Shown here piece by piece: positions 26,630-32,078 of a stretch of 64,000 nt of DNA. How positions within the stretch are numbered: the first letter of the stretch is position 1; every line of letters starts with the position of its first letter. This DNA is from an uncultured Butyricimonas sp. (lineage in GTDB: Bacteria; Bacteroidota; Bacteroidia; Bacteroidales; Marinifilaceae), in contig CALUHX010000004.1 of the NCBI GenBank assembly GCA_944320555.1, positions 1 through 64,000 on the forward strand, written 5' to 3'. The notes under the pieces were generated by a model. It had not been told where the DNA came from, did not search any database, and saw nothing but the letters and a program-made list of their open reading frames with translations. The position numbers and the translations under genes were made by a program.

Positions 26630-26887
26630 TCATATGCTCGAATAGTGAGAACTATGCGACCTATGCGAAGTGTGGGAGCTATGCGAACTATGTGAGCTAT
26701 GGGAACTGTGGCTTGCGAGTAGATTAAACTCGGCAGAGGACTGTTCCAGCACCAACGTCTGTTCTTGCTGCTGTTCGATTTGAGTGTCGCTGTTTGTCAC
26801 TTTGGCGACAATCTTTTCTCCAACAGAAGTACAGTAGCTCGCTCCTGCAAGAATTGCAGAGACCGCAAAGAACAAGAGTTTCTTCAT
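26630..26887 (-). CDS. hxsA2: His-Xaa-Ser repeat precursor peptide (Sec-exported form)
   Basis: 85 residues. Residues 1-20 are a Sec-type signal (MKKLLFFAVSAILAGAS). A linker of ~38 residues rich in Gln/Glu leads to eight consecutive His-Xaa-Ser triplets at 60-83 (Xaa = S,S,S,S,T,R,S,Y), and the chain ends HYSSI. This is the substrate type of the Hxs radical-SAM system. It starts 33 bases after hxsC. The end HYSS plus Ile/Leu is shared with the first precursor at 28063-28284. The export signal differs (no lipobox), so the mature peptide should be periplasmic or secreted. Confidence 0.88.
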   Translation of the reverse strand: MKKLLFFAVSAILAGASYCTSVGEKIVAKVTNSDTQIEQQQEQTLVLEQSSAEFNLLASHSSHSSHSSHSSHTSHRSHSSHYSSI

Positions 26888-26920: not shown

Positions 26921-28066
26921 TTAATTAACACACGATATATCGGATGATATATATTCAATTCTCTTAATATGTGAACTATGGATTTCTCTGCTGGATTCAA
27001 AAAGACCTGCACATTGATTTCGCAATGCACAGCCTTCGCATTCAGAAATATATATATCCTTCCAGTCAGAGATAGACTGTTGGGCATAAGGCCTTACATC
27101 TTCAGGCAACACACATAATTGTGCATTGTATATATACGGCTTCATTCCTCTATCAGCGAGCAATAAAACAGCTTCCCGTAATTCTGTCCTATAATCAAAT
27201 GGGTCTATCCAAAGTTGTTCAATATTTTCCTTTGCTAAACCAACAGTTTCCATTTGAATAAATGCGACCTGTGCAACAAAGGGAAAATTGTGATAAATAT
27301 AATCTGCAAATTGTGGCAATCGCTTATAAGTCTGTTTATGGACTACAATTCTAATCCCTATTCGTTGATGGAACAATGCAAGGTTGTATAAGCCTTGCAC
27401 AGTCTTATAAAAAGTCTTTGCTCCAACTATACGATTGTGTTCTTCTGCTATGTCTGAAAAAAGCGGAATGTCTATCTGCAAATCATGATGCCTACATTTT
27501 GCCAATTTCATTGCATACTCCTTATCTGCAAACTTTACTCCATTTGACAGAATACTGATTGCAGTTTTAGGAAGTTCTTCCTTAATATGATTTATCAAGA
27601 CAAACAAATTATCTCCGATAAGTGTCGGTTCTCCTCCGGTTATACCGATTTCTTGAGTACTCTTGTCAAACAGAGAAATCAATTTCAAGTTGAATGGAGT
27701 CTTGTCCTTTTCTTGTAGTATTGGAGGTTGTGGGCACATAATGCAACGATGGTTGCATCGTTCTGTAGCCATTATCGCATTATGAATAGATTTAATTTCA
27801 TATACAAAAATTATTTCTCCTTGTTTATTTACGACTACAACATCTCCCTCATTAAAAACACCTATACTGCTAACAATGCAATAAGGTTTACCATTATCTG
27901 TAATGAATTCATTTGCTGTAATTGTTGCAACATATCCAGATTTCGGACTCGTGGCGTTTTTATTAACCCATATTTCATTAGTACGATGAAACACATTCTT
28001 TTTGAATGTTATTCGCCCAATAATATCTTCATTTATATTATATGAAATTCCTTTTATCTGTTTCAT
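26921..28066 (-). CDS. hxsC: His-Xaa-Ser system radical SAM maturase HxsC
   Basis: 381 residues. A ~95-residue N-terminal beta-rich domain precedes a radical SAM core with CNHRCIMC (Cys104, 108, 111), ITGGEPTLIG (142-151) and LQIDIPLFSD. Three further Cys near the C-terminus (343, 346, 352 in CEGCALRNQC) resemble an auxiliary cluster site. The last residues contain IHSSH, like its substrate. The ATG overlaps the stop of hxsA (ATGA), so the two are translationally coupled. Radical SAM chemistry on His or Ser of the repeat is expected; the product is not established as far as I know. Confidence 0.9.
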   Translation of the reverse strand: MKQIKGISYNINEDIIGRITFKKNVFHRTNEIWVNKNATSPKSGYVATITANEFITDNGKPYCIVSSIGVFNEGDVVVVNKQGEIIFVYEIKSIHNAIMATERCNHRCIMCPQPPILQEKDKTPFNLKLISLFDKSTQEIGITGGEPTLIGDNLFVLINHIKEELPKTAISILSNGVKFADKEYAMKLAKCRHHDLQIDIPLFSDIAEEHNRIVGAKTFYKTVQGLYNLALFHQRIGIRIVVHKQTYKRLPQFADYIYHNFPFVAQVAFIQMETVGLAKENIEQLWIDPFDYRTELREAVLLLADRGMKPYIYNAQLCVLPEDVRPYAQQSISDWKDIYISECEGCALRNQCAGLFESSREIHSSHIKRIEYISSDISCVN

Positions 28067-28284
28067 AAACTCGAATAATGTGATATATGTGAAAAATGTG
28101 ACGAATGTGATGAATGTGAAGCGTGCTGTATGCGGTCTATTATTGGCTGTTGGGTTGATGGTTGCAGAATCAATGAATCCACGTTGTTGCTTATGGATTC
28201 ATCCTCTTTTGCATTTTTTGTCGTCGAACAAGTTATTAAGCCCCAAAATGCAAATAGCAATATAACAATCTTTTTCATATTCAT
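28063..28284 (-). CDS. hxsA: His-Xaa-Ser repeat precursor peptide (lipoprotein form)
   Basis: 73 residues from ATG 28284 (a second ATG at 28278 is equally possible). A lipoprotein signal with Cys19 in GLITC, a ~34-residue linker, then six His-Xaa-Ser triplets at 54-71 (Xaa = A,S,S,F,I,Y), ending HYSSL. The mature repeat would be tethered to the membrane by its lipid, unlike hxsA2. It sits between hxsB and hxsC, 8 bases after hxsB, and overlaps hxsC by 4 bases. The Phe/Ile/Tyr in the Xaa positions become more hydrophobic toward the end, as in hxsA2. Confidence 0.87.
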   Translation of the reverse strand: MNMKKIVILLFAFWGLITCSTTKNAKEDESISNNVDSLILQPSTQQPIIDRIQHASHSSHSSHFSHISHYSSL

Positions 28285-28292
28285 TTTTATTT

Positions 28293-29717
28293 TCAATTTA
28301 ACCAAGACCAAAAAATTCTGTTTATCTCAGGGTCATGCTTGTGCAGTAACTCAAACAAATAACGTATTATTGATTTTGTCTTTTTACACATTTCATTTGT
28401 CGGTCTGAAACCAATCATATCTCCCTGTTCAGACATATTACGTACGGGGTCTGCACCGCAATAAGGCTGGAACACACATTCGGAACATACGGGTAGGCAC
28501 TCAGTACAAGCAGAAGAAATAATATGGTGTAGAAGTTCACCATTGAACATTTCCTGATAACTGTTTTCATTCACATTGCCCAGCCTGAAATAGTAGTTCT
28601 TGAAACGTGCCATCATTCGGGCTTCATCCGATACATATACACTCCCGTCATAATCATAGATGACGCCTGCAATTCCAACGCCTGCGGGAGATTGTAAATC
28701 AACAAAGCCTGTTGCAAACGGTGTAAGCATCCTCCTTAAAAGGAGTGCGGCAAATCCCTCTACAAAAAATGTTCCTTTCTTGTTCAATTCTATGATATAG
28801 TCAAGACCCTCTTTATAATTTTCAATGAAATCCTCTATAGGGTAAGCTATCTTTTCCTTGTACTGTTTTGCAAAACCGTATGGGTTAAGAGAGCGTAAGA
28901 ATATATTGTTGAATCCCAATCGTATGTATTCGTCAATTATTTCTGTAAAACGCCCCAAACTATATTTCGAGGTCGTCATAAGTGCGGAAGCACAATCATT
29001 GTTTCCCCATATTTCCCGTATCATGGAGAGATGCTTCTCAAAGATTGCATGATGGTCTAACTCGTTGTCTTGCAGCGGACGATTTGTGTCGTGCAGATCT
29101 TTAGGACCGTCCAACGATGTAGAAATCATACAGTTATGTTTCTTCAGGTATTTCACCATCTTTTCGTTCAGCAAGGTCAAATTGGTACAAATAACGAAAT
29201 CCAACTCTTTCTTTTTGAAAAGGTTTTGCCACTCTGCTTCCTCTATGATATATTTCACCATTTCAAAATCGGTTGAAGGGTCGCCGCCCTGAAACTCTAT
29301 CTTGATACACGGTGAAGGTGATTGGAAGATTGTTTTTACAATATTCTTAGCCGTCTGTTTTGTCATATCGGCAGAGTGGTCGTCCCGATTTTTGCGTGCG
29401 ACCTGACAATATATGCAACTGGAATTACAACGCAATGTCGGAACCACCATGTGTAGAGAAGTGAAGTCACGAAGTATGCTTTTCTTTGTGCGAAATTTTG
29501 TCGCAAGCATTGAAACCACATCTTCAACCTTATCTGTCGTAGCAATTTGTTTCGATTCAATATCATAAAACAAATCAGTATGTATATCCATTTCTCCATC
29601 CACAAAACGATGAAAATCCTCGTTTTGCAAGAAGATATATTCCCCGACTTCATTTGTAAGGAGATATTCTGTATCATTGAACCGTTCAAAACGGAATGGC
29701 AATAACTGATAATCCAT
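28293..29717 (-). CDS. hxsB: His-Xaa-Ser system radical SAM/SPASM maturase HxsB
   Basis: 474 residues. Residues ~5-80 form a small domain (FERFNDTEYLLTNEVGEYIF) resembling peptide-recognition elements of other RiPP maturases. The radical SAM motif is CNSSCIYC (Cys97, 101, 104), followed by FQGGDPS and STSLDGPKDLHD. The C-terminal SPASM domain carries Cys404, 407, 411, 414, 420 and 444 (CTECLPVCSEC, YCGADP), enough for two auxiliary 4Fe-4S clusters. It follows hxsD by 4 bases. This is the main maturase of the system. Confidence 0.93.
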   Translation of the reverse strand: MDYQLLPFRFERFNDTEYLLTNEVGEYIFLQNEDFHRFVDGEMDIHTDLFYDIESKQIATTDKVEDVVSMLATKFRTKKSILRDFTSLHMVVPTLRCNSSCIYCQVARKNRDDHSADMTKQTAKNIVKTIFQSPSPCIKIEFQGGDPSTDFEMVKYIIEEAEWQNLFKKKELDFVICTNLTLLNEKMVKYLKKHNCMISTSLDGPKDLHDTNRPLQDNELDHHAIFEKHLSMIREIWGNNDCASALMTTSKYSLGRFTEIIDEYIRLGFNNIFLRSLNPYGFAKQYKEKIAYPIEDFIENYKEGLDYIIELNKKGTFFVEGFAALLLRRMLTPFATGFVDLQSPAGVGIAGVIYDYDGSVYVSDEARMMARFKNYYFRLGNVNENSYQEMFNGELLHHIISSACTECLPVCSECVFQPYCGADPVRNMSEQGDMIGFRPTNEMCKKTKSIIRYLFELLHKHDPEINRIFWSWLN

Positions 29718-29721
29718 ATTC

Positions 29722-30054
29722 TCATTTTGAATTTACTGGTTTGAACGCTTCTTCAACTATCATATCACGAATGTGCCCAAATTGGGCATTAACGTCATGC
29801 CGCAGTTGTTGGTCTATCAATTCATTGCAAAATTGCTTGGGAATGCCAACGGTAATGACATTGTCATCCTTTGATTCAAAAATGACAAGCACCAAATTAG
29901 GATTGGATTTATCCGTTTGCTGATGAATATAAAACAAATGTGAAAACTTATAGATTGCTGCCGTTATTACATCTTTGGAATACAGAGCCAAATCTACAAT
30001 TACTTGAAACTTGTTATTATCAAGCTCGACAACGGGAAATTGAATCTTTGCCAT
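29722..30054 (-). CDS. hxsD: His-Xaa-Ser system protein HxsD
   Basis: 110 residues with no signal peptide. The family core DLALYSKDVITAAIYKFSHL is present near 21-40, followed by a beta-alpha segment. HxsD is the small partner always found with HxsB and HxsC; its role is unknown, probably substrate delivery or a maturase subunit. First gene of the operon, preceded by the structured leader at 30114-30426. A second ATG 5 bases upstream is out of frame. Confidence 0.85.
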   Translation of the reverse strand: MAKIQFPVVELDNNKFQVIVDLALYSKDVITAAIYKFSHLFYIHQQTDKSNPNLVLVIFESKDDNVITVGIPKQFCNELIDQQLRHDVNAQFGHIRDMIVEEAFKPVNSK

Positions 30055-30113
30055 ACCATCTTCAATGTCCTCCAGTCCCTCGAAGACTTTTCTACGTTAT
30101 TAAACACCAAAGC

Positions 30114-30426
30114 GTGGGACCGAGTCTGTCGCTCGTTCCACCATGTAAAGGCTCTCGCATTGCCCGATCAGTCGAAACGAGCAACGCCGAAAGCCCCACG
30201 CCGATGTCATTATATGTACCCTTGATTTTCCTGCCACAGAAGCGTGGCAAGACATGAAAAGGGTCGTGTATAACATCCCCAGGGACGTTCCCGTTGCCTT
30301 GTTTTTGACTGATCATAGAATTTGCGAGATTCTTACATGGTCAAAACACAAGCGTCCAGTAAACGCCTTTTATGTATCCGTGTCCCACCCTCACCAACAG
30401 CCGGCGGCTTTCGGCATAGGTGGAAC
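30114..30426 (-). ncRNA. Structured leader RNA of the hxs operon, family unknown
   Basis: Long-range perfect pairings, read by eye: GTTCCACC 30135-30142 with 30419-30426; CCATGTAA 30141-30148 with 30333-30340; TCTCGCA 30153-30159 with 30323-30329; GATCAGTC 30166-30173 with 30307-30314; a local TGCCAC/GTGGCA hairpin at 30232-30249. GTGGGAC 30114-30120 pairs with 30382-30388 across the outer helix, giving a pseudoknot or an alternative fold. The -7 box at 30431-30438 puts the transcript start at the outer helix on the minus strand. I cannot match it to RNase P, 6S, tmRNA or a riboswitch class. Confidence 0.72.
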
Positions 30427-30430
30427 ATGA

Positions 30431-30438
30431 CAAAGGTA
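30431..30438 (-). promoter_or_regulatory. -7 box of the hxs leader
   Basis: TACCTTTG on the minus strand, a perfect TAnnTTTG. The expected start point falls within a few bases of 30426, the first base of the outer helix of the leader RNA. No TTTG at -33 is seen. Confidence 0.65.
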
Positions 30439-30617
30439 GGGAAAAGTATTCAGAATTGGTATCACATCGCAGAAAAATTTATACAAACCGCCTCTTACAA
30501 ACAGAGCTTTGCCGCAGCCGCACCACCGTTCCCTCTTCAAGTGTCCCGCCGGGGCTTCGTCCGCCCTCCATCCCCACTCATCACCCGCTACAAAAACACT
30601 TCAAAAACATAACACAA

Positions 30618-30686
30618 GCCTATCAAAAGCAATAATTATAGCCTTTGATAAGCTTTTGATAAGCTTTTGGTAAGCTTTTGATATGG
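30618..30686. repeat. Four tandem 11-bp units with one inverted copy
   Basis: Units of TTTTGATAAGC at 30643-30653, 30654-30664, 30665-30675 (one change) and 30676-30686 (diverged end), preceded by an inverted copy GCCTATCAAAAGC at 30618-30630. The 11-bp period equals about one helical turn. The surrounding noncoding bases 30439-30617 and 30687-30837 show nothing else. Confidence 0.8.
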
Positions 30687-30837
30687 GCAAGACACAGGGA
30701 AAAGCCAACGCACAGGGAGCTCCGCAGAACGATTGCGACTGACTCCGCTCCAAAACACGACACATCGACAACCGCCATGTGCCATATTAGGCATTTCGCT
30801 CGAATTCAACTCATGCGGAGGTCTCTGAAAAAAGCAC

Positions 30838-30860
30838 AAAAAAAGAGCGGGAAAACGCTC
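30838..30860 (-). terminator. Terminator, probably the ancestral asmA terminator
   Basis: On the minus strand GAGCG, 6-base loop, CGCTC, then seven T. It lies 43 bases beyond the stop codon of the displaced asmA 3' copy (30903). Confidence 0.8.
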
Positions 30861-30902
30861 CGGCATGCCGTTTTTGCGTTTCCCCGTTCTTTTCCGCCGG
30901 AA

Positions 30903-31031: not shown

Positions 31032-32078
31032 TCACTCATCCTCTTTTCCATGCTGTTCCATAAAGAAACGTTTCTGCTGCTCAATCTCCCGGCGCAATTC
31101 CTCTTCGGTAGGCATGTATGTCATATATTTGGCAGCAAAAATCTGGTCGCTGTCGTGCAATACTGAATATTTTGCTATGGTGTTGTCCGTATCTGTGCAG
31201 AGCAACACGCCGACGGTCGGATTGTCATCCTTTCCCTTAACCAAATCATCGTACATACGGATGTACATATCCAGCTGTCCGATGTCCTGATGGGTCAACT
31301 TATGGGTCTTCAGTTCAAAGATGACGAACCGTTTCATCTTGTAATTATAGAATACAAGGTCGATGTAGAAATCAGCCGTATCGGTCACAATATGTTGTTG
31401 TCTTTCCACGAAAGCGAATCCACGACCGAGTTCCATGATGAATTTTTCGAGATTGTCAATCAATGCCTGTTCCAGTTCTGACTCGGAATAGTCGATGCTT
31501 TGGTGGAATCCCATAAATTCGGCCACCACCGGATTCTTTATGTATTCCAACGGATCCGCTTGACTGGTATAAGGCGCGGGCAGAGTCGAACTCTCCTTTT
31601 GGGCCGCAAGCCGTCGTTCATAATATTGGGTGGAGATATTCCTGTCAAGATCGTCCACACTCCACATATCCTCGGCGGCTGTATTCAGATACCATTCCCT
31701 TGCTCGCGTATTGCTGACGGAAAGAAGCCTGCGGACATGTGACCAAGTAAGATTTTGCACACGCGTGTGCAAAATCTCCACGTCTCTGAATTCCAGATAG
31801 AACTTCCGATAATATGCCAAATTACGCTTACCATAGCCGGTTCCGTATTCCGCAGAAAGCCTGGCTGCAAGAGCCGGAATAAGTTTTTGTCCGTATGCAG
31901 CCCTGCTTGCTCCATGTTGCTCCTCTTCCACGATACGCCGTCCGATGTTCCAATAAGTCATGATGGCTATTTGGCCTGTTGCGGCATACGCTTGTTTCCG
32001 TCCTTGCTCTATAATGGTTCTGATATCGGAAACGAGATTCTCGGTTATTACATCGATCTGTTGTTTATTCTTTTCCAT
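31032..32078 (-). CDS. DUF1016 / YhcG-type PDDEXK nuclease-domain protein
   Basis: 348 residues. The N-terminal DUF1016_N winged-helix part (TYWNIGRRIVEEEQHG, GYGKRNLAYYRKFYLEF, LSVSNTRAREWYL) is followed by the YhcG PDDEXK domain: DNLEKFIMELGRGFAFVERQ, FYIDLVFYN (Asp) and RFVIFELKTHKLTHQD (Glu-x-Lys). Predicted DNA endonuclease of a family tied to mobile DNA and phage defence; some members stimulate recombination. Flanked by the asmA tail duplication, so likely a recent insertion. 48-62 bases of spacer lie on each side of the gene. Confidence 0.9.
   Translation of the reverse strand: MEKNKQQIDVITENLVSDIRTIIEQGRKQAYAATGQIAIMTYWNIGRRIVEEEQHGASRAAYGQKLIPALAARLSAEYGTGYGKRNLAYYRKFYLEFRDVEILHTRVQNLTWSHVRRLLSVSNTRAREWYLNTAAEDMWSVDDLDRNISTQYYERRLAAQKESSTLPAPYTSQADPLEYIKNPVVAEFMGFHQSIDYSESELEQALIDNLEKFIMELGRGFAFVERQQHIVTDTADFYIDLVFYNYKMKRFVIFELKTHKLTHQDIGQLDMYIRMYDDLVKGKDDNPTVGVLLCTDTDNTIAKYSVLHDSDQIFAAKYMTYMPTEEELRREIEQQKRFFMEQHGKEDE

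Follow-up and report, generated by a model that had tools for sequence, protein, structure and literature searches.

Classical attenuators, such as the leaders of amino-acid operons, are built from four RNA segments that pair either as 1:2 and 3:4 or as 2:3. Orphan riboswitch candidates and the c-di-GMP classes are conserved cis-acting leaders that occur in many copies ahead of diverse genes.

RNA motifs of the Bacteroidales were described in 2010, and selected ones were deposited in Rfam (PMC2864571). Bacteroidales-1, Bacteroides-1 and Bacteroid-trp (Weinberg 2010, PMC2864571) are, like the RNA described here, structured RNAs of Bacteroidales or Bacteroidetes. A list from the human microbiome comprises 3161 RNA candidates (PMC8040213), among them HMP2_1881, an expressed Bacteroidetes candidate of 108 bp near radical SAM genes (PMC8040213). 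The FopS RNAs are paralogous trans-acting Bacteroides sRNAs of ~65-70 nt (PMC11697453). The median 5' UTR of B. thetaiotaomicron has a length of 32 nt (PMC7366714).

We analysed a stretch of 64,000 nt (the window) from an uncultured Butyricimonas sp. (contig CALUHX010000004.1, positions 1 to 64,000), in which a preliminary description had placed a folded leader RNA at the head of an hxs operon.

The hxs operon and its leader

The genes downstream of the leader gave the following matches to protein family models.

29722..30054, minus strand: hxsD, first gene of the operon (NCBIfam TIGR03976, E = 1.2e-26)
28293..29717, minus strand: hxsB, radical SAM maturase (TIGR03978, 644 bits)
28063..28311, minus strand: His-Xaa-Ser repeat protein, HxsA-like (TIGR03979, E = 1.3e-7, under the cut-off)
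26921..28066, minus strand: hxsC, radical SAM maturase (TIGR03977, 381 bits)
26630..26887, minus strand: HxsA2-type His-Xaa-Ser repeat protein (NF038296, 62.8 bits, cut-off 48)

By these predicted products, the genes after the leader are a true His-Xaa-Ser system. The next gene upstream (31032-32078, minus strand) encodes a YhcG/DUF1016-type PDDEXK nuclease (PF06250, PF17761), and tandem-like AAGCTTTTGATAAGCTTTTG repeats are found at 30612-30690, upstream of the promoter region of the leader.

The window copy of the leader RNA runs from 30438 to 30046 on the minus strand and belongs to a family of ~400 nt. Long-range helices of exact complementarity had been proposed within this region and exist at the stated coordinates; the exact helices of the window include:

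30419-30426/30135-30142, minus strand: proposed outermost helix
30333-30341/30140-30148, minus strand: 9-bp helix
30323-30329/30153-30159, minus strand: helix
30307-30314/30166-30173, minus strand: helix
30406-30415/30186-30195, minus strand: 10-bp helix
30382-30388/30114-30120, minus strand: proposed crossing helix

The density of exact pairing is indeed above chance. The 313 nt of 30114-30426 (minus strand) can form eight helices of 7 bp or more by exact Watson-Crick pairing; the expectation from shuffled sequences was 2.2 ± 1.5, and none of 200 dinucleotide shuffles had eight. The minimum free energy of the region 30055-30430 was -151 kcal/mol (z = -6.6). The helices had also been described as nested in order, which does not apply to all of them: the 10-bp helix crosses the 9-bp helix of the arm, and the outermost helix and the next one have bases 30140-30142 in common.

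Distribution of the RNA family

A blastn search of the segment against 60 related genomes revealed copies with 72-77% identity in three other genomes, one of which has two copies, and weaker copies in two further genomes. For the family searches we used a covariance model, R1. It matched in 12 of 57 genomes from the family of the window and in 65 of 393 sampled Bacteroidales genomes, while the genome of the window itself was the sole match in a phylum-wide sample of 296 genomes; there was no covariance-model match in the genomes sampled outside the order Bacteroidales. A deeper search of 15 genomes gave 3 to 12 copies per genome. Carriers include Parabacteroides distasonis NM39_I3, Paraprevotella xylaniphila YIT 11841, Prevotella ihumii and Bacteroides caecigallinarum, as well as Muribaculaceae and Alistipes MAGs.

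The genome of the window carries two more, more divergent copies (G000:C51:20740-20979, locus L081, and G000:C41:11232-11432). Three IMG/VR contigs labelled viral also harbor RNA copies (L221, L222 and L223). A further stretch, near 382402-382447 at locus L016 (G023:C9), has 82% identity over 46 nt to the 3' end of the window leader and its hairpin D (see below); it is followed by a 486-aa gene and may be a degenerate or related type of leader.

When the whole window was searched with Rfam 15 at the gathering score, only tmRNA and tRNA matches were found, all of them elsewhere. At E up to 5 the region of the leader gave just chance miRNA models (30583-30895), and no model lay over the RNA at nine other loci. 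Membership in any Rfam 15 family was rejected, as neither the window copy nor these nine loci reached the gathering score. Comparison of the copies shows that the candidate RNAs are a Bacteroidales-specific family of ~400-nt structured leaders that is new to Rfam 15.

Parts of the family may have been listed before, e.g., among the candidates of PMC8040213, as judged by description from the open-access literature. HMP2_1881 could overlap part of the family, again when compared by description alone. FopS (PMC11697453) is likewise a multi-copy RNA family of Bacteroides, and identity with it was rejected, since sRNAs of ~65-70 nt are too short compared to the ~400-nt leader.

Core structure and covariation

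An alignment of six cores contained 16 pairs with both sides changed. In a larger alignment of 47 copies (A5), 93.7% of the cells were paired, compared to 77.4% after shuffling and 36-47% when the columns were slid by 1-3 positions. Both sides were changed in 51 of 69 core pairs (36.9 ± 2.5 in shuffled alignments), and none of 500 shuffles matched the observed values. A5 was fitted to the model structure and is hence biased towards it; the consensus fold of a structure-free alignment agrees with it. Compensatory changes exceed the controls, which argues for a truly structured RNA and not for chance folding.

For 123 copies we also compared the energy of each duplex inside one copy with its energy between copies (native versus cross); the resulting z values are inflated by the kinship of the copies and are to be read against controls, not as probabilities. 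Reversed or displaced control pairings gave z values of -2.3 to +0.6. The core elements are as follows.

30381..30427, minus strand: P0, hairpin of variable length at the 5' end of the RNA; its arms covary (z = -6.2)
30367..30378, minus strand: 5' strand of the closing helix P1 (z = -5.4); its partner, 30104-30112, includes the U tract
30350..30368, minus strand: P2, small hairpin AGGCGUUUACUGGACGCUU; helix 1 of A5, 93.9% paired, 5 of 8 pairs changed on both sides
30141..30346, minus strand: P3, long central arm; helices 2-8 of A5, 45 of 57 pairs changed on both sides
30411..30417, minus strand: 5' strand of PK1 (AUGCCGA), pairs with 30198-30204
30198..30204, minus strand: 3' strand of PK1, the core bulge (UCGGCGU), pairs with 30411-30417

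P3 has conserved internal loops, and the length of its tip varies. A pseudoknot had been part of the preliminary description, and the pseudoknot PK1, in which P0 pairs with the core bulge, does covary (z = -5.4, or -4.7 for a tight segment; controls -1.7 to +0.6). Compensatory cases were found at L013, L116, L084, L097 and L178, and the pairing reached -6 kcal/mol or lower in 84 of 123 copies. Comparison of the copies thus shows P0 to P3 and PK1 as predicted elements of the family.

Applied to the helices that had been proposed for the window, the homologues upheld only the three helices of the arm. The outer helix (30419-30426/30135-30142) was without covariation over the 123 copies (z = -0.6), and so was the crossing helix (30382-30388/30114-30120; z = -1.2).

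Promoter, leader position and downstream operons

The RNA had been supposed to start at its own promoter, and a matching box is present:

30431..30438, minus strand: -7 promoter box TACCTTTG (motif match to the Bacteroidetes TAnnTTTG)

Of 123 copies, 96 have an exact TAnnTTTG in the 110 nt that precede the core, most often at a distance of 50-75 nt; the reverse-complement control gave 11. Among 46 copies with long flanking sequence, 44 are followed by a co-directional ORF. In the larger set this applied to the first downstream ORF of 104 of 110 copies and to the nearest upstream ORF of 69 of 115; since a simple length rule defined the ORFs, single gene starts are approximate. At the median, the first ATG lay 71.5 nt past the core. 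An upstream, co-directional position at short spacing is that of a cis-acting leader, and the comparison shows both this putative leader position and the promoter box for most copies of the family.

The downstream operons are unrelated to each other. They encode SNF2/DrmD-like helicases with DNA methylases, Hsp70, DUF2971 proteins, BspA leucine-rich repeat proteins, kinases with FHA, PP2C or caspase domains, BACON proteins, LPP20 lipoproteins, outer-membrane barrels and the hxs RiPP system. The preliminary description of a folded leader RNA that heads the hxs operon is borne out by the compensatory changes in homologues and by the confirmed HxsD, HxsB, HxsC and HxsA; its restriction to hxs is not, as many unrelated operons are headed by the RNA.

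A guide RNA or the partner of one protein family was rejected, since the downstream proteins belong to many unrelated families. A regulator of defence only was also rejected: PADLOC matches are frequent, yet many operons encode surface proteins, lipoproteins or RiPP enzymes. As a riboswitch the leader would bind a small ligand directly, and the varied downstream genes point to no particular one. Since the operons are varied, a general signal would be expected rather than a pathway metabolite.

Some operon types accompany the RNA in more than one genome: DUF6175/LPP20-like operons at L072 and L088, Hsp70 at L012 and L013, and an operon with a DrmD-like helicase and a methylase at L068, L074, L075, L077 and L067. 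Joint inheritance or transfer is therefore possible. The first ORFs of L094, L112, L173, L024 and L126 start with M-V/I-H-I/V-G-x-L-I, like small helix-turn-helix proteins; L094 gave a weak match to HTH_3, the sole one among those first ORFs scanned.

The RNA might also belong to a mobile element or an insertion module, as a guide-like or recombination-target RNA that moves with cargo operons. Its patchy presence with several copies per genome, the varied cargo, often of defence type (DrmD-like, methylases), and the three matches on viral contigs would fit such a module. However, the copies within one genome are divergent, the downstream genes share no common associated protein, and collections of plasmid and phage records gave no blastn match. 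We consider this explanation very improbable.

Terminator-like hairpin and alternative pairings

The 3' part of the RNA contains a hairpin, T, a U tract and a second hairpin, D. Five segments are formed by the arm pair (1 and 2), hairpin T (3 and 4) and D (5).

30291..30304, minus strand: segment 1 (AAACAAGGCAACGG), covaries with X, its partner within the arm
30174..30185, minus strand: segment 2 or X (GUUGCUCGUUUC), pairs with segment 1 or segment 3
30128..30141, minus strand: segment 3, 5' arm and loop of T (GUGGAACGAGCGAC), ~12 bp with X
30114..30122, minus strand: segment 4, 3' arm of T (CGGUCCCAC), forms hairpin T with segment 3 or pairs with segment 5 (D)
30102..30113, minus strand: U tract (GCUUUGGUGUUU), degenerate in the window copy
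30072..30088, minus strand: segment 5, hairpin D, whose loop (30073-30081, GAGGGACUG) complements segment 4

Each segment can pair with its neighbour. Covariation of 1:2 (5' side of the arm with X) had a z value of -4.5 overall and of -3.4 in copies with a variant X. For 2:3 (X with the loop of T) z was -2.9 overall and -8.9 in the 17 copies with an X other than GUUGCUCGUU, and the X:T5' duplex was present in all 123 copies. The stem of T (3:4) gave z = -8.4. The strongest covariation of all was seen for 4:5, the 3' arm of T with the loop of D (z = -10.3): in 109 copies several pair types occurred at most positions, and the duplex of the window copy had -14.9 kcal/mol. All four alternative pairings are thus shown by comparison of the copies as predicted duplexes. 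Because their base ranges overlap, neighbours in the series 1:2, 2:3, 3:4 and 4:5 are predicted to be mutually exclusive, and two complete states are therefore expected, {1:2, 3:4} and {2:3, 4:5}.

The preliminary description had proposed a switch between the outer and the crossing helix. Mutually exclusive pairings do exist in the leader, though they are formed by different pairs, lie partly beyond 30114-30426 and depend on 30072-30088, which is outside the region described. On the whole, the original observation is real and more general than described, and was partly confirmed in detail.

The mean energy of hairpin T was -11.6 kcal/mol, and in 106 of 123 copies a run of 10 nt with 7 or more U comes after it. 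T with the U tract has the shape of an intrinsic terminator, as the 3:4 hairpin of an attenuator would, in degenerate form in the window copy. A simple terminator scan misses T, as its loop of ~18 nt exceeds the limit of the tool (8 nt). The competing pairing of putative antiterminator type (2:3) is conserved as well. The U tract doubles as the 3' strand of P1.

Hairpin D is located 35-50 nt past the core, at variable spacing from the ATG. Polymerase reaches segment 5 only past the U tract, so that this segment cannot itself prevent termination; its conservation would instead point to the read-through mRNA as its place of action, perhaps at the start of translation. The strong covariation of 4:5 suggests a function in translation or in the completed fold. 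With its weak U tract, the window copy may terminate poorly, and control there may be mainly translational.

These features bear on two further explanations. The leader might be a single ligand- or protein-binding element acting on translation only, with T3':D and X:T5' in one final fold, the U tract as a strand of P1 and no termination. This would agree with 4:5 being the strongest covariation, with the position of D between the core and an ATG at ~72 nt, with the pairing of the U tract to the 5' strand in P1 (z = -5.4) and with the poor U tract of the window copy. It is difficult to reconcile with a T stem that covaries at z = -8.4 and is then followed by the U tract in most copies, or with the variable spacing of D to the ATG, and we regard it as doubtful. 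The second explanation is a stand-alone gene, with a promoter and a terminator of its own, for a trans-acting sRNA of ~310 nt; the downstream genes would be incidental. The promoter box, the terminator-shaped 3' hairpin and the multi-copy nature of the family, as in other paralogous sRNAs (PMC11697453), are compatible with this. The co-directional downstream ORF (104 of 110) and its narrow ATG spacing are not expected for such a gene, and a covarying helix with a region past the U tract, near the start of the ORF, needs one shared transcript. A stand-alone sRNA is therefore quite unlikely.

Proposed mechanism

We favor a family of cis-acting, two-state, attenuator-like leader RNAs with their own promoter and a ladder of five segments, the state of which is chosen by the conserved domain, and estimate the probability of this reading at roughly 0.6. 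Each copy would be transcribed from its own promoter, and the conserved domain (P0, P1, P2, P3 and PK1) would feed the five segments. Between its lower and upper parts the arm has a large internal loop, which may allow it to fold back; X would then lie beside T and the core bulge beside P0. In state A (1:2 and 3:4) the terminator-shaped hairpin and the U tract would halt transcription, and an RNA of ~310 nt would be released. In state B (2:3 and 4:5) hairpin 3:4 would be dismantled, leading to read-through, and segment 4 would be held by the loop of the hairpin just before the start codon, altering the translation-initiation region. The domain would pick the state by a signal common to many operons, which may be a small molecule, an RNA-binding protein, or the status of polymerase or ribosome. 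That regulation acts through these two states is an inference, as is the choice of the ON state. The leader would control read-through and/or translation.

A conserved ~400-nt leader with several covarying alternative pairings that is present in gut Bacteroidales in up to 12 copies per genome ahead of unrelated, mostly uncharacterised operons would represent an unrecognised shared control layer. Its signal, once found, would reveal the condition that switches on defence, surface and peptide systems together. Culturable carriers such as Parabacteroides distasonis and Paraprevotella xylaniphila exist.

Comparison with known systems

Like the classical attenuators, the leader precedes an operon, has exclusive 1:2, 2:3 and 3:4 pairings and forms a terminator-shaped 3:4 hairpin followed by a U tract. 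In contrast to them, it has a much larger, highly conserved folded domain, a fifth segment past the U tract, and pseudoknots. Classical attenuators serve one pathway, whereas the leader family heads unrelated operons.

The family resembles orphan and c-di-GMP riboswitches in its many copies ahead of diverse genes and its apparent expression platform. It differs from riboswitches such as the c-di-GMP classes in the unusually long, rod-like arm and in its confinement to one order. Unlike Bacteroidales-1, Bacteroides-1 and Bacteroid-trp, it has no match in Rfam 15.

Antitermination by UpxY-type NusG paralogues at the capsule leaders of Bacteroides also takes place in this order and controls long operons ahead of the first gene. 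However, the leader RNA heads many operons other than capsule operons, and the loci examined showed no link to UpxY. The tally contained one NusG match among the first genes, but the suspected locus L096 turned out to encode DUF4230, and a UpxY/NusG link was rejected.

We consider it an even call whether the family would represent a new large class of riboregulators, a common module for accessory operons (defence, RiPP, surface, chaperone/kinase) with one shared signal and a strand-exchange flip of five segments. On comparative grounds, it is a new RNA family of predicted leaders of the attenuator or riboswitch type, the general kind of which is already known.
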